A stretch of DNA of 38,372 bases from Magnetococcales bacterium. Its GTDB lineage: Bacteria > Pseudomonadota > Magnetococcia > Magnetococcales > Magnetaquicoccaceae. The notes under the pieces were generated by a model that searched no databases, was not told the origin of the DNA, and was given only the letters and a program-made list of their open reading frames with translations. Positions 9,778-19,577 of this stretch are shown in pieces. The translations under genes were made by a program, and so were the position numbers. The stretch's first letter is position 1; each line of letters opens with the position of its first letter. The stretch spans positions 1 through 38,372 of the forward strand of contig JADGAZ010000028.1 in assembly GCA_015231755.1 (NCBI GenBank), in the 5' to 3' direction.

Positions 9778-11247
9778 TCAGGATCCGACGGGCACCCGTT
9801 CGGTTCTGACAGGCATGTCATCGTACAGGTAGTTGGCATGAATCTGACCCCGATACAGATTGGTCAGATGATCGATCACCGCCGGGTCGGGTTCGACACC
9901 GGCCACGCTGTCTTTGGACTCCCGCCACGCCAGCAGCGCCAAGGAATGGGAACAGGCATCCACCAGGGAGGGTTCTTCCGCGATCATCACCGCCAACGCT
10001 TTCCGATCAAACTCATAAACCAATGCCGCGGTTTCGGCAATCGCCGTGGCCACCTGAGGCTGATGACAGAACAAGGCCCGCAGACCAAAAGCCTCGGTGG
10101 CGATGAAGCGCTCCGTGACCAGCTTGGTGCCATCCCGGTCTGTCAAGGTCCGTTTGACCATGCCCTCGCCGACGATAAACAGGGAATCCCGCTGCTCGCC
10201 AGCCTTGACGATGGTGGCTCCGGCGGCGAAATAACGTTCGCTCATGGTAGCGGCAATGCGTTTGCACACCGTGGCCGGCAGTTGCCGGAACACACGACAC
10301 TGTTGCACCAGTCGCAACGTATCCAGGGAACGGTTGGCGATGGGAACGCGGCCTTGGGACTGGATGAACTCGGACTTGGGGAAGGAGACGGTGATTCCGG
10401 CGTCGCGCATGCATTGCAAGATGCTTTTGATCACCATGTGATCGGCCTTCCAGCGATCCCCGTAATTGGAAATGATATACGTGACCAGATAGACCACCCC
10501 ATCCCGTTCGATCCGAATCGCGGTTACGCTGGGGGGACTGACATACGTTACGCCCATCGCTCCCAGCACCGCCGCATATAAAATACGCTCCGCGCTATCC
10601 ACCGAGGTGTCGAAATCGATCACCACCTCGATGTTGCGGCGCGCCCGGGCATCCGGGGTGGTGAAGTTGACGATCACCGCATTGGCGAGGGTCAGATTGG
10701 GAATGATCAAGGTTTCTTCGTTTCTGGTCAGCAGATAGGTGGCGCGCCAGGTGATCTTGTCGACCTTGCCCCCCCATTTGTCGTTGATCTTGACGTTGTC
10801 TCCGGGTTTCAGAGGTTTTTCAACGTTGAGCAAAATCCCGGTAAAGGCCGACAACAACATGTCCCGCAGCGCGAGACCGATCACCATGACCGAAGCGCCT
10901 CCGGTGGCGACCAGCGCGGTGATGTCTCGTTTGAAGACCATCGAGAAGATGATGCAGATACCGATGAAAAAGATCAAAGCGCCGGTCAGATCGATCACCA
11001 GTTGGGGCAAAGCCTTGCCGGTTTTTCTTGGCAGAACCCCGTTCAGAATTTCGTGACGGACGAAGCGGGAACACAGGATCGTCAACACCAGCCCAAAGGC
11101 GCCGGCGATATACTGCTCCAGCGCCTGCTGCGGCATCCCCGAGACAAACGCCAACGGTCTGGTGAACAGATCATCCAGCAGGACCGCCATACCGAGTATG
11201 ACGCCTGTTACCGTCATCTTGCCATAAATCTGCCAATATCCATTCAT
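9778..11247 (-). CDS. MscS-type mechanosensitive channel fused to a cyclic-nucleotide-binding-type domain
   Basis: This 489-residue protein has three membrane helices (about 12-30, 45-62, 85-105) followed by the pore-lining helix (110-140: ALVATGGASVMVIGLALRDM, then FTGILL). The beta domain GDNVKI...GKVDKITWRATYLLT and NLTLANAVIVNF are typical of the MscS superfamily. Residues 310-430 form a cNMP-binding-type beta-roll (AGATIVKAGEQRDSLFIVGEG), which resembles bCNG channels (bacterial cyclic-nucleotide-gated MscS relatives). In the phosphate cassette the usual arginine is replaced (HQPQVATAIA), so cAMP binding is doubtful. It starts 14 bp after the stop of the upstream pseudokinase gene and should be in one operon with it. 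A strong terminator follows. Confidence 0.9.
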   Translation of the reverse strand: MNGYWQIYGKMTVTGVILGMAVLLDDLFTRPLAFVSGMPQQALEQYIAGAFGLVLTILCSRFVRHEILNGVLPRKTGKALPQLVIDLTGALIFFIGICIIFSMVFKRDITALVATGGASVMVIGLALRDMLLSAFTGILLNVEKPLKPGDNVKINDKWGGKVDKITWRATYLLTRNEETLIIPNLTLANAVIVNFTTPDARARRNIEVVIDFDTSVDSAERILYAAVLGAMGVTYVSPPSVTAIRIERDGVVYLVTYIISNYGDRWKADHMVIKSILQCMRDAGITVSFPKSEFIQSQGRVPIANRSLDTLRLVQQCRVFRQLPATVCKRIAATMSERYFAAGATIVKAGEQRDSLFIVGEGMVKRTLTDRDGTKLVTERFIATEAFGLRALFCHQPQVATAIAETAALVYEFDRKALAVMIAEEPSLVDACSHSLALLAWRESKDSVAGVEPDPAVIDHLTNLYRGQIHANYLYDDMPVRTERVPVGS

Positions 11248-11261
11248 GGTAGCGATGCCCC

Positions 11262-13088
11262 TCAGACGGTAACCGGAAGACGAAGAACGAAGCCGGGTTC
11301 GGATGTGGAGACTTCGAGGCTGCCACCGTAGAATTCAAGGATGACCCGGGACAAGACCACCGCGATCAGGGGCGCGGTATTGGTTTCCGTGGCGTTGGAG
11401 ACATTGCCGATGCGGGAGAGGAACTGACGGGACTCGTCGATCATGGCCTCGTTGGGCACACCGGCGTTGGCGAAGGCGGAACCGGTGATCGACAGATTCA
11501 GCCACCCTCCGTCCCGATCGTGGCGACAGGCCACGGTGATGTTGCCGCTGCCACTCTGATGGGCGGCGTAACCGACCAGACCGGAAATGGCCCGACGCAG
11601 CAGATCGGCATCCGCCCGGATCTGAGGCATATCCGCCGTTACCGTCGAAGCGATCTTGAGTTGCGGCAAACGACGCAGACTGGCCATGTCTTCGGCGATC
11701 ACCAAGGCGGTCACATCGGCCACCGACACCAGGGGATTTTCCGCCTTGACCAGTTTCTGGCGGAAGAGTTCCAACTGCTGATAGTCGGCGACCAGACGGC
11801 TGAGACGGGCGGTTTTGTGCATGGAGAATTCAAACCGTTCCCGCAGGATCTGGCGCTGCTCCGGCAGGGGCAACTCCCCTTTCGCCACGGTATCGACCGT
11901 GGGCATCAAGGATTGCAACTGTCCGCTGACCGACAACAAAGGCTCATTGAGAGCGGTCACCAGATTGGTGAAGAAGCCACGTTTGATCAGATCCACTTCC
12001 TTCAATTTGGCCATGGCGGCGTCACACATCACGGCGCGGTCTTCGAGTTCCTTCTTCTGGCGGCTCATCACGCCGAAGAAGCCGGCGCGCATCTGGCCCA
12101 ACTGCATGTATCCAACCGTACCGCCCACGGCGATGACCAGAAACAAAATGACCGCCTTGATGGCCACGCCCTGGAACAGATCACCATACACTTCGGTGAG
12201 ATCCAGCATGGTGGAAATCACGATGGTCGGCACCCCGGAAAAGTTGACCAGGGGAAACGTCTTGACAAAAACGGTCTTCTTCCCGGACTTGTCCAGAGAG
12301 GAATCCTTGGCGCGGGGATCGAAATTCAGCGCACGCATCATCTCCCCGGCGGTATTGTCCGAGTAGATGTAATAGACATCGGTGCCCTTGACGGCGTCAT
12401 TTTTGTTGTCGATGGGCCGTTCAACCCGATCCGAGACCTCTTTCATCAGGCCAATGGCCCACTTCAAGCCGGTCACCGTGCTGGCGCGTTCCAAAGGAAT
12501 ATTGAAATCGCTGGCATATTCAAGCACACCCACCAGTTTGTCCTCGTGGGTCACCGGGGTGATGGCCCGCACCGCGATGACCCCGCCCAGACCGGTCTCC
12601 ACAGCCAGGATTTTTTGTTTGCGCTCATTGGCGGCCACGATGGATTTGCGGAACTTGCTCAGATCCTGACCGTATTCCGTCGGACTGCCCGCCCGATAAA
12701 ACAGGGTGGCCGGGGCGTGCCAAAAATTGAGTTGGGCCACGCCGTGATCCTTGCGCAGAACCTGGAAAAAGGGTTCGATGCGGGCAATCAGGGCATCACG
12801 ATCCTTCTTGGCGAAAGCCTCGACCGTGACCCGGCTTTGCAACATGACCTCGGAGGCCAGATTCATCGCCCGCATGCGGGCCTGAAGCAGATCGCGGAAA
12901 ACGGTTTCAAATTGTTCCGCGTTGGCATTCGTGCGCTTGAGCACCGCCCCGGTGGAAGAGGCGTAATCATTGATGGCATAAAACCCGGACAATCCGAGCG
13001 CCGCCAGAATGATCAAGAGAATGATCCATCCGCTGGCGCCTTCCGACTTCTTGCCGCTGTCACCCGACTTCTTTTCTGTTGTCATCAT
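11262..13088 (-). CDS. Double-Cache-like membrane sensor with a degenerate histidine-kinase core (pseudokinase)
   Basis: The product has 608 residues. Helix 1 (20-38) and helix 2 (307-326) flank a ~265-residue extracytoplasmic sensor with Cache-like motifs (FWHAPATLFYRAG, ETGLGGVIAVRAITPV, VGVLEYASDF). The cytoplasmic half has the layout of a DHp/CA histidine kinase, but the phospho-acceptor site reads LVTALNEPLL with T378 where SHELRTPL would have His. The N-box equivalent (RRAISGLVGYAAHQ) has no Asn, and no G-box GxGxG is seen. Autophosphorylation is therefore not expected. GGAAGGG lies 5 nt before the start. The MscS-cNMP channel gene follows 14 bp downstream, so this sensor may control that channel by conformational coupling, or be a ligand-binding regulator of another kinase; both are inference. 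Confidence 0.82.
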   Translation of the reverse strand: MMTTEKKSGDSGKKSEGASGWIILLIILAALGLSGFYAINDYASSTGAVLKRTNANAEQFETVFRDLLQARMRAMNLASEVMLQSRVTVEAFAKKDRDALIARIEPFFQVLRKDHGVAQLNFWHAPATLFYRAGSPTEYGQDLSKFRKSIVAANERKQKILAVETGLGGVIAVRAITPVTHEDKLVGVLEYASDFNIPLERASTVTGLKWAIGLMKEVSDRVERPIDNKNDAVKGTDVYYIYSDNTAGEMMRALNFDPRAKDSSLDKSGKKTVFVKTFPLVNFSGVPTIVISTMLDLTEVYGDLFQGVAIKAVILFLVIAVGGTVGYMQLGQMRAGFFGVMSRQKKELEDRAVMCDAAMAKLKEVDLIKRGFFTNLVTALNEPLLSVSGQLQSLMPTVDTVAKGELPLPEQRQILRERFEFSMHKTARLSRLVADYQQLELFRQKLVKAENPLVSVADVTALVIAEDMASLRRLPQLKIASTVTADMPQIRADADLLRRAISGLVGYAAHQSGSGNITVACRHDRDGGWLNLSITGSAFANAGVPNEAMIDESRQFLSRIGNVSNATETNTAPLIAVVLSRVILEFYGGSLEVSTSEPGFVLRLPVTV

Positions 13089-13465: not shown

Positions 13466-14809
13466 ATGCCGGACTCCTCTTTGCAAGATTTTTTACAGCG
13501 TGTTGCCACCCTCAATCCCGGGCAATCCGAGTTTCTGCAGGCGGTCACCGAGGTCATGATCAGTCTGTGGCCTTTCATTCAGAAAAATCCGCAATACCTG
13601 GAACAATGCCTGCTGGAGCGTCTCATCGAACCCGAACGGATCGTCATGTTCCGCGTCGCCTGGATGGATGACCAGGACACGGTCCAGGTCAACCGGGGCT
13701 ATCGGATCCAACACAGCATGGCAATCGGCCCCTACAAGGGCGGTCTGCGTTTTCATCCATCGGTCAATTTGTCGGTGCTCAAATTTCTGGCCTTTGAGCA
13801 AACCTTCAAAAACGCCCTCACCTCCCTGCCCATGGGCAGTGGCAAAGGCGGCTCCGACTTTGACCCCAAAGGCAAAAGCCCTCTCGAAATCATGCGGTTC
13901 TGTCAGGCTTTCGTGACCGAACTGTTCCGCCATGTGGGTCCGGATACCGATGTCCCGGCTGGCGACATCGGGGTCGGCGCCCGCGAAATCGGCTTCATGG
14001 TGGGCATGATGAAAAAACTGGTCAACAGCGCCGCCAGCGTCTTCACCGGCAAAGGGGTCTCCTTTGGCGGCTCTTTGGTCCGTTCCGAAGCCACCGGATA
14101 CGGTCTGGTCTATTTTGTGGAAGAGATGCTCAAAGCCTCCGGACGCTCCCTGGACGGGCTGAGGGTCGGGGTCTCCGGTTCGGGCAACGTGGCCCAGTAC
14201 GCGGTCGAAAAGGCCATGCACCTGGGCGCCAAGGTGATCACCGTTTCCGACTCCGGGGGCACCATCATCGATCCGGCGGGATTTGATCAGGAAAAACTGG
14301 CAATTTTGATGCAAGTCAAGAATGAACGTTTCGGTCGTGTCAGCGACTATGCGAAACTCACCGGCGTGACCTTTGAACCGGGCCTCAAACCCTGGCAGGT
14401 GCCCATGGATGTGGCCATGCCCTGCGCGACCCAGAACGAACTCAACGCCGTGGATGCGGCCACCCTGATCCACAATGGGGTCATCTGCGTGGCCGAAGGA
14501 GCCAACATGCCCAGCACCATCGAGGCCATCCAGACCTTCACCGCCGCCGATGTGCTGTATGCCCCCAGCAAGGCCTGCAACGCCGGTGGTGTGGCCACGT
14601 CCGGCATGGAAATGAGTCAAAACGCCCTGCGCCTCTCCTGGAGTCGGGAAGAGGTGGATACCCGCTTGCGGCACATCATGACCAACATCCATGCCACCTG
14701 CCTACAGTATGGCCGCCACGACGATGGTCGCGTCAGCTACCCGGATGGGGCGAACATCGCCGGATTCGTCAAGGTGGCGGACGCCATGCTGGCCCAGGGC
14801 GTGATCTAG
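13466..14809 (+). CDS. gdhA: NADP-type glutamate dehydrogenase
   Basis: The 447-residue length is typical of the hexameric small-subunit glutamate dehydrogenases. The enzyme reductively aminates 2-oxoglutarate with ammonium to glutamate in the cytoplasm. Visible signatures are the glutamate-binding block RGYRIQHSMAIGPYKGGLRF, the active-site lysine K127 in LPMGSGKGGSDFDPKGKS, DVPAGDIGVGAREIGFM, and the Rossmann dinucleotide site GVSGSGNVAQYA, followed by a Ser/Asp (SDSGG) after strand 2, which fits NADP preference seen in GdhA. The conserved NAGGVATSGMEMSQN block is complete. The start at 13466 has no clear Shine-Dalgarno sequence; no better start is available. It is a single-gene unit between a divergent pseudokinase gene and the PCMT-like operon 141 bp downstream. 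Confidence 0.96.
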   Translation: MPDSSLQDFLQRVATLNPGQSEFLQAVTEVMISLWPFIQKNPQYLEQCLLERLIEPERIVMFRVAWMDDQDTVQVNRGYRIQHSMAIGPYKGGLRFHPSVNLSVLKFLAFEQTFKNALTSLPMGSGKGGSDFDPKGKSPLEIMRFCQAFVTELFRHVGPDTDVPAGDIGVGAREIGFMVGMMKKLVNSAASVFTGKGVSFGGSLVRSEATGYGLVYFVEEMLKASGRSLDGLRVGVSGSGNVAQYAVEKAMHLGAKVITVSDSGGTIIDPAGFDQEKLAILMQVKNERFGRVSDYAKLTGVTFEPGLKPWQVPMDVAMPCATQNELNAVDAATLIHNGVICVAEGANMPSTIEAIQTFTAADVLYAPSKACNAGGVATSGMEMSQNALRLSWSREEVDTRLRHIMTNIHATCLQYGRHDDGRVSYPDGANIAGFVKVADAMLAQGVI

Positions 14810-14950: not shown

Positions 14951-15907
14951 ATGAAACCATTGTCGATGAATCGAATCCAGCTGTGTCTCCCGTTGTTGCT
15001 GATGGGACTGTTCACCCCGGTCGCCCCCGGTTTCGCCGAGGGTACCCCTGCTACTGCCGTCGCCCCTGCTGCTGCGCCTGCTACTGCCGCCGCCCCTGCT
15101 ACTGCCAGCAGCTTCGATGTGGCCACCCTGCCCTCACCGGATCACAAGGACAAGGCCAGCTTCGTCTCGTCCATGGGCAAGCTCACCAAACACGACAAGG
15201 CCATGGTGGCTTGGCGCTATGACCGCTTCAAGGCGCTTTTGAACAACAAGGATCTGGTCTCCGACAGCGGCAAAGAGGCCAAAGCCTTCCTGCTGACCGC
15301 CCGCGAAGAGTTCACCCTGGAAAGAAACAAGCCCCGCGCCTATGACCATGCCTTTCTGGACATCGGTTACGGGGTGACCATTTCCGGTCCCCATCTGGTG
15401 ATGCGCATGACCTCCGCCCTGGACGTGCAACCCACGGACAAGGTGCTGGAAGTGGGCACCGGTTCCGGTTACCAGTCGGCGATTCTGGCCCACCTGTCCA
15501 ACAACGTGAACTCGGTGGAAATCATCGAGCCCCTCCACGAACGCACCAAGGCGGTGTACAAAAAACTGGTGGACGCCGGCAACGCTGAATACCAGAATGT
15601 GCATCTGAAGTCCGGGGACGGCTATCACGGCTGGGAAGAAAACGGACCGTACAACAAGATCATCGTCACCTGCGCCATCGACCACATTCCGCCTCCCCTG
15701 CTCAAGCAGTTGGCCCCCAACGGTGTCATCGTGATCCCCGTCGGCCCCCCGGGCAAACAGACCCTGCTCAAGGTGCAAAAGACCGTCGATGCGGAAGGCA
15801 AAGTCACCATCAACCGCACCGATGTCTATAACGGCAGACGCTCGGTCTCCTTCGTGCCCTTCACCAAACAAGGCGGCGGCACCTGGAGCGGAAAGGGCAA
15901 CCGTTGA
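14951..15907 (+). CDS. Exported PCMT-like (protein-L-isoaspartate O-methyltransferase family) protein
   Basis: This 318-residue protein has a signal-peptide-like N-terminus (residues 1-29, core LCLPLLLMGLFTPVAPGFA) followed by an Ala/Pro/Thr-rich linker (33-52) encoded by a repetitive stretch. Residues 75-310 match the PCMT fold: motif I KVLEVGTGSGYQSAILAHL, the acidic EIIEPL after strand 2, GDGYHGW, then IIVTCAIDHIPPPLLKQL, which is the family's post-II region, and a C-terminal RRSVSFVPF. PCMT repairs isoaspartyl residues with S-adenosylmethionine in the cytosol; an exported version would lack its cofactor unless SAM is supplied. The signal could instead be a membrane anchor. Its stop overlaps the start of the next gene (TTGA), implying translational coupling with the spermidine-synthase-like membrane protein. 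Confidence 0.85.
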   Translation: MKPLSMNRIQLCLPLLLMGLFTPVAPGFAEGTPATAVAPAAAPATAAAPATASSFDVATLPSPDHKDKASFVSSMGKLTKHDKAMVAWRYDRFKALLNNKDLVSDSGKEAKAFLLTAREEFTLERNKPRAYDHAFLDIGYGVTISGPHLVMRMTSALDVQPTDKVLEVGTGSGYQSAILAHLSNNVNSVEIIEPLHERTKAVYKKLVDAGNAEYQNVHLKSGDGYHGWEENGPYNKIIVTCAIDHIPPPLLKQLAPNGVIVIPVGPPGKQTLLKVQKTVDAEGKVTINRTDVYNGRRSVSFVPFTKQGGGTWSGKGNR

Positions 15908-18489
15908 GCGGTCTCCCCTCGAAAGTGGCGCCGGAAACCGCAGCCCGGCGCCACTCTTTTCTGCTCGCGGTGTTTCTCATCGCCGGAGCCATCATCGGTC
16001 TGCAAATCACCATCATGCGGCTTTACGCCATCTCCGGCTGGGCCCATTTCGGTTCCCTGGTGGTGAGTGTCGCCATGTTCGGCTTCGGTTTTGCCAGCAC
16101 CGTCATGTGCCTGGGCCGGGGTCTGTTTGAACGGCGCATCGAAGAGATCGCCCGCCTCGCCCTGTTGTTGTTCGGTCCCCTGACCGTGCTCGGCAACGTG
16201 GTGGCCCAGAACGCCCAGTTCAATCCCATTTTCCTGCTGGCGGACAACCGGCAGATTCTCAACCTGATCTTCAACCTGCTGGCCTACGCCGCCCCGTTCC
16301 TGGTGGGGGCGATCCTGCTGGGCATCTGTTTTCTGGCCGGACGCCACCGCTTCCAGCTCACCTATGCGGCGGACATGACCGGCTCCGGCGTCACCGGACT
16401 GCTCTGCCTAGCCGCCATGGACTGGCTGATTCCCGAACATCTGCTGCTGCTGCCCCTGCTGCTGTGGTGGGGCGGCGCCCTCGCTTGGTTCCGCGCCTGG
16501 GAAGACCGACGCTCCCCCTGGCTGGTGAGTCTTTCCGGGGTGGTCTCCCTGCTGATGCTGTTTCTGCTGCCCCAGCTACAGGTCTCCCCCTACAAAGGGG
16601 TGAGCTACGCCGCCAAGTTTCCCGACGCCCAACGGCTCTATCATGCCGCCGGCGCCCACGGTCTGCACGAAATCTTCGGTAGCTCCTACTTCCATTTCGC
16701 CCCCGGCCTGAGCGACATGGCCTCCCTGACCATGGGAGAGTTGCCGAAAAATACCTACATCGGTCTGTATGTGGACAGCGATGGCCCCATCGGCATCATG
16801 AAGGCCATCCCCCCGGAACAAAACGATTATTACCGTTTCCTGCCCATGTCCATGCCCTACCTGCTGCATCCGCAGCCGGAAAGCGTGTTCGTGGTGCAGT
16901 TCGGCGGCGGCATTTCCACCCGGGTGGCCCTGGCCGGCGGCGCGAAACACGTCACCGTGGCGGAAGGCAACCCCATGATTCCCAAAGCCTTCTCCGACGA
17001 CGCCATCCGGACTTTCACCGGAAATCTCCTCGGTGATCCCCGTCTGACCCTGGCCCCCATGGATGGTCATCTGTTCATCCGCAGCAGCAAACAGCATTTC
17101 CAGGTGATCGATCTGAGTCTGGCGGACTCTACCGGGCTGTCCAGTCCCGGCGGTTTCTCGGTCACGGAAAAATATCTGTACACCCGGGAAACCATGGCCG
17201 CCTACATGAACGCCCTGGAACCGAACGGAGTGCTGGCGGTCACGGTGTGGAACAAGGAAGATCCCCCGAAATCCACCCTGCGCCTCTTCAACACCCTGGC
17301 GGCGGCGGGACGGGCCACCGCCGGCGAACTGACCCCCAACTCCTTTTATGTGGTGCAGGTGTTTCTTTCCACCACCACCGTGCTGTACAAAAAAGGTGGC
17401 TTCACCGCGGAAGAACGGGCGAAACTGGATGCCCACGCCCGGGAAATGGCTTTCGACGTGGTTTACCGCCCCGGCGAACGATTCCAGGGAGACGCGCAGG
17501 CCCTGCTTGGGGGATTCCGTCAGGTGGTGCTGGGCGGCAAAATCACGCCGACGGCCACCCCCGACGCGGACAATCCCGCGCCGGAAGCCGAAGAGGAAGG
17601 TCCAGACCTCTCCGTACCCTCCTTGTACCGACTCATGCTCGATCGCATGATGTACAACGAAAAACCGGATGAAATCCTATCCTATCCCTTCGACATCTCA
17701 CCCTTGACGGATGATCGGCCCTATTTCGCCGGTTTCGTGCGGCTGAATGATCTGTTTTCATTCGTCGGGCGTCTGGAGGTCATCTCCGACGAGTGGGGCT
17801 ATCTGCTGTTATGGCTGACCCTGGGTCAATCGGCCATGGCCGGAGCGTTGCTGCTCTCCATGCCGATCCTGTTCGGCTGGCGCACCATCTTTGCCCCCCA
17901 GCCCGGCAAGCTCGGCATTCTGGGCTATTTTGCCGCCCTTGGATTGGGGTATATACTGGTGGAAGTGGCACTGATCGGCAAATTCATCAGCGCCTTGGGC
18001 AATCAGGTGATCTCCACCAGCGTGCTGATCACCGGCATGCTGATCAGCACCGGTCTGGGATCACTGGCCTCCGGACGTATCGTGGAACGGGCTTCCGCCA
18101 TCATGCCGCGGATCTTCCTGGCCATCGCCGCCATCCTGACCCTCTACGGCGTGGCCCTGGAAACCTGGTTGCCGGTCATCGGCACCCTCTCCTGGCGCAC
18201 GGCGGCCTGCATTCTGCTGCTGTTTCCGCCGGCCTTTCTGATGGGGTTTCCCTTCGCCACCGGCATGAGCTGGCTGGCCAAACTGGGCAAGGAACCTTTC
18301 TTCCTATGGGCATGGGGCATCAACGGCATGTTTTCGGTCATGGGCGCGGTGCTGGTTCCCATCATCGCCGTCAACGTGGGGCTGTCCGCCAACCTCTATC
18401 TGGCGGGAATCCTTTATCTGCTGGCCTGGCCCTGCTTCTTCGCCTTGCTGAAACCCTCCCCCGCCGCCTCCTGCGGGTCGGGTGTCTGA
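15904..18489 (+). CDS. Polytopic membrane protein with spermidine-synthase-like domain
   Basis: The product has 861 residues. The N-terminal ~225 contain about six to seven membrane helices (for example 19-38, 48-70, 87-101, 119-147, 180-197, 207-224). Residues 230-610 carry a SpeE-like Rossmann region: VVQFGGGISTRVAL and AEGNPM as SAM-site equivalents, and IDLSLADST plus YLYTRETM, which align with the aminopropyltransferase VDSSDP and LYTREF regions. The C-terminal ~240 residues add several further helices. Such fused membrane/SpeE proteins are widespread and of unknown reaction. The start is the TTG at 15904, inside the stop of the preceding gene (TTGA), because it lies 4 nt from it and no ATG precedes the first helix. 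The stop overlaps the next gene by one base (TGATG). The product probably modifies a substrate at the inner membrane together with its neighbours. Confidence 0.85.
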   Translation: MSGLPSKVAPETAARRHSFLLAVFLIAGAIIGLQITIMRLYAISGWAHFGSLVVSVAMFGFGFASTVMCLGRGLFERRIEEIARLALLLFGPLTVLGNVVAQNAQFNPIFLLADNRQILNLIFNLLAYAAPFLVGAILLGICFLAGRHRFQLTYAADMTGSGVTGLLCLAAMDWLIPEHLLLLPLLLWWGGALAWFRAWEDRRSPWLVSLSGVVSLLMLFLLPQLQVSPYKGVSYAAKFPDAQRLYHAAGAHGLHEIFGSSYFHFAPGLSDMASLTMGELPKNTYIGLYVDSDGPIGIMKAIPPEQNDYYRFLPMSMPYLLHPQPESVFVVQFGGGISTRVALAGGAKHVTVAEGNPMIPKAFSDDAIRTFTGNLLGDPRLTLAPMDGHLFIRSSKQHFQVIDLSLADSTGLSSPGGFSVTEKYLYTRETMAAYMNALEPNGVLAVTVWNKEDPPKSTLRLFNTLAAAGRATAGELTPNSFYVVQVFLSTTTVLYKKGGFTAEERAKLDAHAREMAFDVVYRPGERFQGDAQALLGGFRQVVLGGKITPTATPDADNPAPEAEEEGPDLSVPSLYRLMLDRMMYNEKPDEILSYPFDISPLTDDRPYFAGFVRLNDLFSFVGRLEVISDEWGYLLLWLTLGQSAMAGALLLSMPILFGWRTIFAPQPGKLGILGYFAALGLGYILVEVALIGKFISALGNQVISTSVLITGMLISTGLGSLASGRIVERASAIMPRIFLAIAAILTLYGVALETWLPVIGTLSWRTAACILLLFPPAFLMGFPFATGMSWLAKLGKEPFFLWAWGINGMFSVMGAVLVPIIAVNVGLSANLYLAGILYLLAWPCFFALLKPSPAASCGSGV

Positions 18490-19577
18490 TGGCGGTACTG
18501 CTTCAAGGGGGCATGGCTCTGGCGACAGAGCCTGCCTCCTCCCTTCGTCACGAGGTGATCTGCCGCAAAACCCCCTCCTGCCAGATGACCCTGATGGCCC
18601 GCTTGCCCCACGCCCCGTTTCCCTATGACGGCATGGTGGGAGATACCGGCCAGCCCTTCTTCGAGGGAATGGACGCCGCCCATGGCCAACGTCTGCATCG
18701 GGTCAGCGAAGAGTTGTCCTATCCCGAATCCCCCCACTACCGGGACAACCGGGTCTTGATCCATCTGCCTCCGCAATTCAAGCCGGACAACCCTTTCGAG
18801 ATTGTGGTCTTTTTCCACGGACACATGACCGAACTCAACCGCACGGTGGTGGACGAGATGGCCCTGCCGGACCAGATCAACGCCACAGGCCGCAATCTGC
18901 TGCTGGTGGCCCCCCAAATGGTGTTGGAAGGGGCGGACTCCAGCCCTGGCAAGCTCTATCGTCCCGGGGGATTCGACAACCTGCTCCAGGATGTCTCGAA
19001 GGTGCTGAAAAGCCGGATGGGCAAAACCTTCGCCGCACGCTTCGACCGGGCACCGGTGATCCTGACCGCCTTCAGCGGTGGATTCCGGGCCACGGCCTAT
19101 ACCCTGGACCGGGGATTTGCCAATCAGAAACCATTGAAAAAACCGAACAAAGGGGACAAGAAAAACAAAAGAGACAAACCGGGCAAAGAAGAAATACCGG
19201 ACAAACGGGTCTCTCCGGACAAACGGGATGCCCGCCTGCGGGGCGTGATCCTGGTGGATGCCCTGTACAGCGATACCGAGAAGTTCAACGCCTGGTTGCG
19301 ACATCCTGGGCGACGGGGATTTTTCGTCAACCTTTACGGCCCATCCAGCGCGCCGCTTTCCCAGCAGCTTCAGCAGGAGTGGGACCAGTGCAAGCTGCCC
19401 TGGTCGGAGCGCCTGAAAGGAAAAATCAAGCCGAAAGGCCTCTACTCCCTGTCGGTGGAAACCCACCACGATTCCATTCTCCTGGCGGGACCGCCCTCCT
19501 GGCCCCTGGTGGAGATTCTCAAAAAATTCGGCAACCCGACCACCTCACCACCCGCGCCACCCCGCTCCCGGAAATGA
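18489..19577 (+). CDS. Exported alpha/beta-hydrolase-like protein with a lysine-rich insertion
   Basis: About 362 residues from the ATG at 18489, which overlaps the previous stop (TGATG). The short hydrophobic start (MAVLLQGGMALA) looks like the core of a signal peptide; a non-ATG start upstream (for example CTG 18471 reading LRVGCLMAVLL) would give the usual basic N-region, so the true start is unsure. The hydrolase fold is suggested by EIVVFFHGH (oxyanion region, 104-112), the nucleophile elbow TAFSGGFRA (S196), a later LVDALYSD for the acid and SVETHHDSIL for the histidine. Residues about 207-245 are a low-complexity Lys/Asp/Pro segment absent from ordinary hydrolases. An exported esterase or amidase is the likely role; substrate unknown. 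It is the last gene of the coupled trio and ends 52 bp before a convergent response-regulator gene. Confidence 0.75.
   Translation: MAVLLQGGMALATEPASSLRHEVICRKTPSCQMTLMARLPHAPFPYDGMVGDTGQPFFEGMDAAHGQRLHRVSEELSYPESPHYRDNRVLIHLPPQFKPDNPFEIVVFFHGHMTELNRTVVDEMALPDQINATGRNLLLVAPQMVLEGADSSPGKLYRPGGFDNLLQDVSKVLKSRMGKTFAARFDRAPVILTAFSGGFRATAYTLDRGFANQKPLKKPNKGDKKNKRDKPGKEEIPDKRVSPDKRDARLRGVILVDALYSDTEKFNAWLRHPGRRGFFVNLYGPSSAPLSQQLQQEWDQCKLPWSERLKGKIKPKGLYSLSVETHHDSILLAGPPSWPLVEILKKFGNPTTSPPAPPRSRK

Follow-up and report, generated by a model that had tools for sequence, protein, structure and literature searches.

The region studied here lies in a stretch of 38,372 nucleotides from a Magnetococcales bacterium (contig JADGAZ010000028.1 of assembly GCA_015231755.1), which is called the window below. 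Three consecutive genes on the forward strand, named A, B and C, occupy positions 14951 to 19577 and carry the following features:

14951..15907, + strand: gene A, predicted exported PIMT (PCMT) homologue of 318 aa; PF01135 with E 3.5e-45; Pcm structures matched over residues 111-275
14951..15037, + strand: residues 1-29 of A, read by inspection as a signal peptide cleaved after GFA
15440..15475, + strand: SAM motif I of A, KVLEVGTGSGYQ, residues 164-175
15904..18489, + strand: gene B, 861 aa, TTG start, MFS-like halves around a SpeE-like domain
15940..16566, + strand: first block of seven TM helices of B, residues 13-221, from hydropathy over 81 homologues and the AlphaFold2 model
16585..17769, + strand: SpeE/methyltransferase-fold domain of B, predicted periplasmic, residues 228-622, with GGGI 334-337, E354, D387, D403, S405 and D408
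17773..18447, + strand: second block of seven TM helices of B, residues 624-848, with the invariant E687 in the ninth helix
18489..19577, + strand: gene C, alpha/beta serine hydrolase of 362 aa, triad S196/D257/H327, start codon uncertain

The coordinates confirmed the overlaps given in the preliminary description, TTGA between A and B (the TTG start of B overlapping the stop codon of A) and TGATG between B and C. The host genome measures 3.84 Mb and is 97.8% complete, and its nearest named relatives are Magnetococcales MAGs. Elsewhere in the window, a glutamate dehydrogenase gene (13466-14809) adjoins a gene at 11262-13088 (− strand) for a membrane sensor that carries a dCache_3 domain and weakly matches a histidine-kinase ATPase. 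At 9778-11247 (− strand) lies a gene whose translation, judged by inspection only, has the look of an MscS-type channel and ends in a domain that resembles cyclic-nucleotide-binding ones.

In protein A, a linker rich in Ala, Pro and Thr connects the signal peptide to a PCMT domain. By inspection, its N-terminus is a Sec-type signal peptide, MKPLSMNRIQLCLPLLLMGLFTPVAPGFA, followed by EG. The protein scored 154.8 bits against PF01135, above the curated cut-off of 20.3, and its structural matches were Pcm proteins of the E. coli and V. cholerae type. It fell short of both NCBI equivalog models, NF001453 (175 vs 188 bits) and TIGR00080 (155.1 vs 159.05 bits), and is therefore filed as a PCMT-family homologue and not as a certified equivalog. 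A shares its fold, SAM motif and TISxP motif with PIMT (Pcm; PF01135), and differs from it by its predicted Sec or Tat export, by scores just under the equivalog cut-offs and by the signature GVTISGPH in place of the GQTISQP of bacterial PIMTs. Since A combines these scores with a divergent motif, its substrate may differ from that of PIMT. Across 77 homologues, E167, G169, T170, G171, S172, G173 and Q175 of SAM motif I are invariant, as are T143, S145 and P147 of the TISxP motif, with I or M at position 144. The putatively exported protein has thus kept its cofactor site.

Export signals in the A family were called by a pattern scan and not by a trained signal-peptide predictor. A Tat-type (twin-arginine) signal was found in at least 42 of the 77 homologues, and a hydrophobic Sec-type or similar start in another 32. 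Three members had no scored signal: one of them is truncated where its contig stops, and in another (L029) a long linker places the N-terminus outside the scan. In a divergent clade, A can open with a Tat-type, lipobox-like sequence (L147), and divergent relatives on plasmids carry an ordinary PIMT motif behind a signal peptide. Retention of export while the pathway switches between Tat and Sec is good evidence, at the level of sequence, that the outside location matters, and export of A by either pathway is supported across its family. The host genome also encodes a second PCMT with no evident signal peptide (L001, G000:C7:66798-67400, − strand), which is probably an ordinary cytosolic Pcm; we counted this separate enzyme in favour of a periplasmic role for A.

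Hydropathy profiles of 81 B homologues revealed two sets of seven helices, separated by a domain of about 390 residues. When the N-terminus is placed inside the cell, cytoplasmic loops carry a mean of 17.7 Lys/Arg compared to 6.6 for outside loops. All 81 homologues agree with this model, and eight divergent members likewise fit it by positive-inside count. This topology puts the SpeE-like domain of B in the predicted periplasm. In the AlphaFold2 model (pLDDT 88.6, pTM 0.88), the two TM blocks superposed on the MFS carrier G6PT1 (SLC37A4; 9ugy) with Z 25.1 over 366 residues at 9% identity, and on a second MFS structure, 9ugu, with Z 23.8; these matches, obtained by Foldseek and VIA-align, indicate fold and not function. 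Pfam assigned no MFS family to B at E 0.1, nor to five diverse homologues at E 0.01. Compared to MFS carriers such as G6PT1, B has two extra helices and a predicted periplasmic insert of 390 residues, and with one extra helix per half the central loop of the MFS fold, otherwise cytoplasmic, would come to lie in the periplasm. Within the TM helices, R39, H48, D157 and E687 vary little or not at all, and the membrane glutamate E687 is kept across the wider, divergent B family, as would be expected of a carrier.

The SpeE-like domain of the B model matched the polyamine aminopropyltransferase 1uir with Z 19.8 over 263 residues. This fold speaks for an aminopropyltransferase decorating the envelope with polyamines, a function that the preliminary description had put forward, but several observations make it very improbable. 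B reached neither the PF01564 cut-off (20.3 vs 22.9 bits) nor that of TIGR00417 (20.3 vs 249.55 bits). The acid of GGG(D/E)G, which binds decarboxylated SAM, is missing, with no acid at positions 333-338, and S405 replaces the first catalytic Asp, while the second, D408, is kept. No AdoMet_dc match was found in the 97.8%-complete host genome, where an unrelated decarboxylase could still exist; AdoMet_dc was present in only 1 of 21 genomes searched, against 8 of 14 control genomes. On the strength of the lost acids and of the failure to find a SAM decarboxylase, B was not filed as an aminopropyltransferase and polyamine decoration is disfavoured. Membrane spermidine synthases of the PRK03612 type, found in relatives (L167-L170), resemble B in joining a multi-TM N-terminal block to a SpeE-fold domain. 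They keep GGGDG or GAGDG and DLPDP, whereas B has GGGI, S405 and a second TM block. In two of them (L169, L170), the positive-inside count suggests an N-in arrangement with seven helices, which would leave the SpeE domain outside.

The SAM-binding E354, the glycine motif, D387 and D408 are kept in B, and the active-site stretch DLSLADS is strongly conserved. Nucleotide-binding residues in a predicted periplasmic domain, joined to an MFS fold, would also suit a protein that takes up or senses external SAM, SAH or related nucleosides for salvage, with the domain as receptor and A merely binding the same compounds. We regard this as quite improbable, because the catalytic-type TISxP motif of A is invariant, which mere binding would not call for, and the substrate-side stretch of B is conserved too.

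The association of A with B was examined in a genome scan whose query was an alignment of nine B proteins and contained B only; 80 loci of named genomes were obtained. Although the loci had been found with B alone, 76 of the 77 that had room for A carried it directly before B, on the upstream side, a linkage far beyond chance. The pairing persists at about 26-30% identity, and far more distant B homologues still adjoin a PCMT (L025, L144-L148), with signal peptides in those examined. C followed B in 59 of the 71 loci with room. The preliminary description had treated the three coupled genes as a unit, and this was borne out for A and B; a strict trio was rejected, C being missing from the other 12 loci and solitary elsewhere. 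The core unit is thus A-B, with C as a frequent accessory. The three-family survey that it had called for gave a similar picture: among 299 genomes sampled across the phylum, strong A (>440 bits) and strong B (>800 bits) occurred in the identical 14, whereas C was also found without them. Since 12 of the 14 come from the order to which the window itself is assigned, they do not count as 14 independent events. Judged from sequence, A does not look like a cytosolic protein with an uncleaved N-terminus and has not drifted apart from B, the two outcomes that the preliminary description had named as speaking against its proposal. No further conserved neighbour of A-B-C was found in 22 diverse loci. 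An apparent fusion of A and B (frames of 1172 and 1173 residues in L012 and L013) was discarded, the B frame simply staying open through A in another frame.

B loci span Alpha-, Beta- and Gammaproteobacteria and Riflebacteria (a MAG), and include those of the cultured strains Reyranella soli, Prosthecomicrobium hirschii, Lichenibacterium ramalinae and Rudaea cellulosilytica. In a tree of B, the Magnetococcales form one clade and the alpha, beta and gamma members are intermixed, which is suggestive, but no proof, of horizontal transfer. The pairwise distances in the three protein families are correlated (r 0.82-0.91), an effect that common ancestry of the genomes could also produce. Microvirga and Phyllobacterium plasmids carry the A-B pair without C. 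On the Microvirga sp. VF16 plasmid pMVF16-5 (L217:3217-6409) the two-gene unit, annotated only as 'PIMT' and 'SAM-dependent methyltransferase', has IS110 and IS6 family transposase genes some distance away on either side, which suggests mobility; the pair is apparently a mobile module as well as a widely spread one. A few B homologues were found with no A next door (L103, L149, L150 and, on a Rhizobium jaguaris plasmid, L216), which counts against the module reading preferred below; in them B may work by itself or with a partner encoded elsewhere.

The A-B linkage and the extracytoplasmic location are well supported; linkage, export signals, topology signature, folds and conserved SAM-binding residues are all computed observations. 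The idea of an extracytoplasmic module with two SAM-fold proteins is upheld by the export signals across the A family and by the predicted periplasmic SpeE-like domain of B. To our knowledge, SAM is not thought to be available outside the inner membrane, and we know of no route for it into the bacterial periplasm. The preliminary description was right to raise the puzzle of SAM on the outer side; the predicted exported A keeps its SAM motif and the predicted periplasmic domain of B its SAM-binding residues. The occurrence of A and B side by side in many bacteria suggests that SAM is used outside the inner membrane.

The reading that we prefer, tentatively and with a little less than half of our confidence, is that A-B, often with C, forms a periplasmic SAM-dependent protein-methylation module, in which A would repair or tag envelope proteins and B would bring SAM to the periplasm or use it there. 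Our inference covers the use of SAM by periplasmic enzymes, its transport by B, the isoaspartate substrate and whatever C does. Once exported, A would modify envelope proteins at aspartyl or isoaspartyl positions, and repair of aged isoaspartate would be its most likely task. B would be an MFS-type carrier with an extra helix per half and a SAM-binding, methyltransferase-like SpeE domain in the periplasm; it would most likely move SAM out and SAH back, supplying both its own periplasmic domain and A. C may be an accessory exported serine esterase, perhaps cleaving a methyl ester or another ester product. SAM-dependent enzymes at work in the periplasm would require a way for SAM to reach it, and B can now be named as a candidate carrier. 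A would be a candidate for the repair of isoaspartate damage in the periplasm, in a module that is present in cultured strains, and annotation of the B family in the style of 'spermidine synthase' would need correction.

A more specific form of this proposal, possible but doubtful, is a dedicated system for SAM export and periplasmic methylation, in which B carries SAM and feeds A for isoaspartate repair, as a methyl-donor counterpart of MsrPQ. In MsrPQ, a polytopic membrane partner overcomes the missing cytosolic cofactor for an exported repair enzyme. The likeness to A-B is one of principle, a repair enzyme for proteins being exported and served by a polytopic membrane protein of its own; the chemistry is different and the proteins are unrelated. 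MsrPQ repairs methionine sulfoxide in the periplasm (PMC9302797), and as a conceptual precedent it speaks for the preferred reading. In the literature searched, which left most subscription journals outside, we found no description of an exported PIMT, of the A-B pair or of periplasmic SAM, in keeping with the earlier view of a little-described system; two papers mention pcm genes, not in the A-B arrangement (PMC5442454 and PMC5705917).

The nearest precedent in function, which likewise speaks for the preferred reading, is NHMT (AN4663), the fungal 7TM N-terminal histidine methyltransferase, which resides in the ER and, as knockout and mutation showed, methylates secreted proteins (PMC10349129). 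Its authors note that the enzyme may be limited by how much SAM reaches the ER, and they describe its 7TM sequence as unique to filamentous fungi (PMC10349129). Like B, it joins seven TM helices to a SpeE-like domain that faces away from the cytosol, has no acid in the glycine motif and keeps the SAM-binding Glu; unlike B, it has neither a second 7TM block completing an MFS-like fold nor an exported PIMT partner. The analogy concerns the mode of action and does not make B an NHMT. If it holds, the two would point to SpeE-like domains on seven-helix bundles as a recurring design for protein methylation outside the cytosol. In a different division of labour, B would itself be the main enzyme, an NHMT-like periplasmic methyltransferase, with A as a second one, the two tagging specific secreted proteins or peptides and C reversing or processing the tag. 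Besides the missing acid of GxG(D/E)G and the retained Glu, the strongly conserved DLSLADS stretch, the unusual motif of A and the presence of C in 59 of 71 loci are consistent with this, but the divergent A members with an ordinary PIMT motif behind a signal peptide, the lack of a dedicated substrate gene conserved nearby and the dispensable, sometimes solitary C argue against it, and we consider it rather unlikely.

Our preferred repair model leaves C unexplained, because the PIMT repair cycle requires no esterase. The AlphaFold2 model of C (pLDDT 88.9) is an alpha/beta hydrolase, whose closest folds are S-formylglutathione hydrolases and feruloyl esterases (Z about 16-17). C has their fold and triad; it differs from them in sequence, with about 10% identity, and in being probably exported or lipoprotein-like. 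The Ser-Asp-His triad was invariant in 60 of 60 sequences, and no Pfam or NCBIfam model matched C. Of the earlier claim of an exported hydrolase, the hydrolase fold is upheld and export is probable, but read from the ATG at 18489 the protein begins with only a brief hydrophobic stretch that has no basic residues. For a fuller signal peptide, PRRLLRVGCLMAVLLQGGMALA, translation would have to start at a non-ATG codon upstream of 18489. Export signals are clearer in relatives, some of which have lipobox-like cysteines. The esterase fold of C would also fit a module whose methyl acceptor, on the outer side of the inner membrane, is a small molecule or a compound linked to lipid, with C hydrolysing an ester or related compound and the carrier-like B exporting the acceptor rather than SAM. 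This seems improbable, as A is nearest to protein methyltransferases and no biosynthetic genes are conserved nearby.

C was also found without A or B, and was unlinked to A-B in one genome (G005). Solitary C with a lipobox-like start was seen in several genomes of one large-genome genus. L210, L211, L212, L213 and L215 hold C-family hydrolases with N-terminal extensions and lipobox-like cysteines and no A-B. In several genomes, a gene for an APC-type amino-acid permease, recognised by inspection, adjoins the solitary hydrolases. In a genome of one divergent clade, the place of C, after B and A, is taken by the gene for an aspartyl protease of the retropepsin-like kind (PF13650), whose N-terminus is Tat-like (L162:10639-11592).
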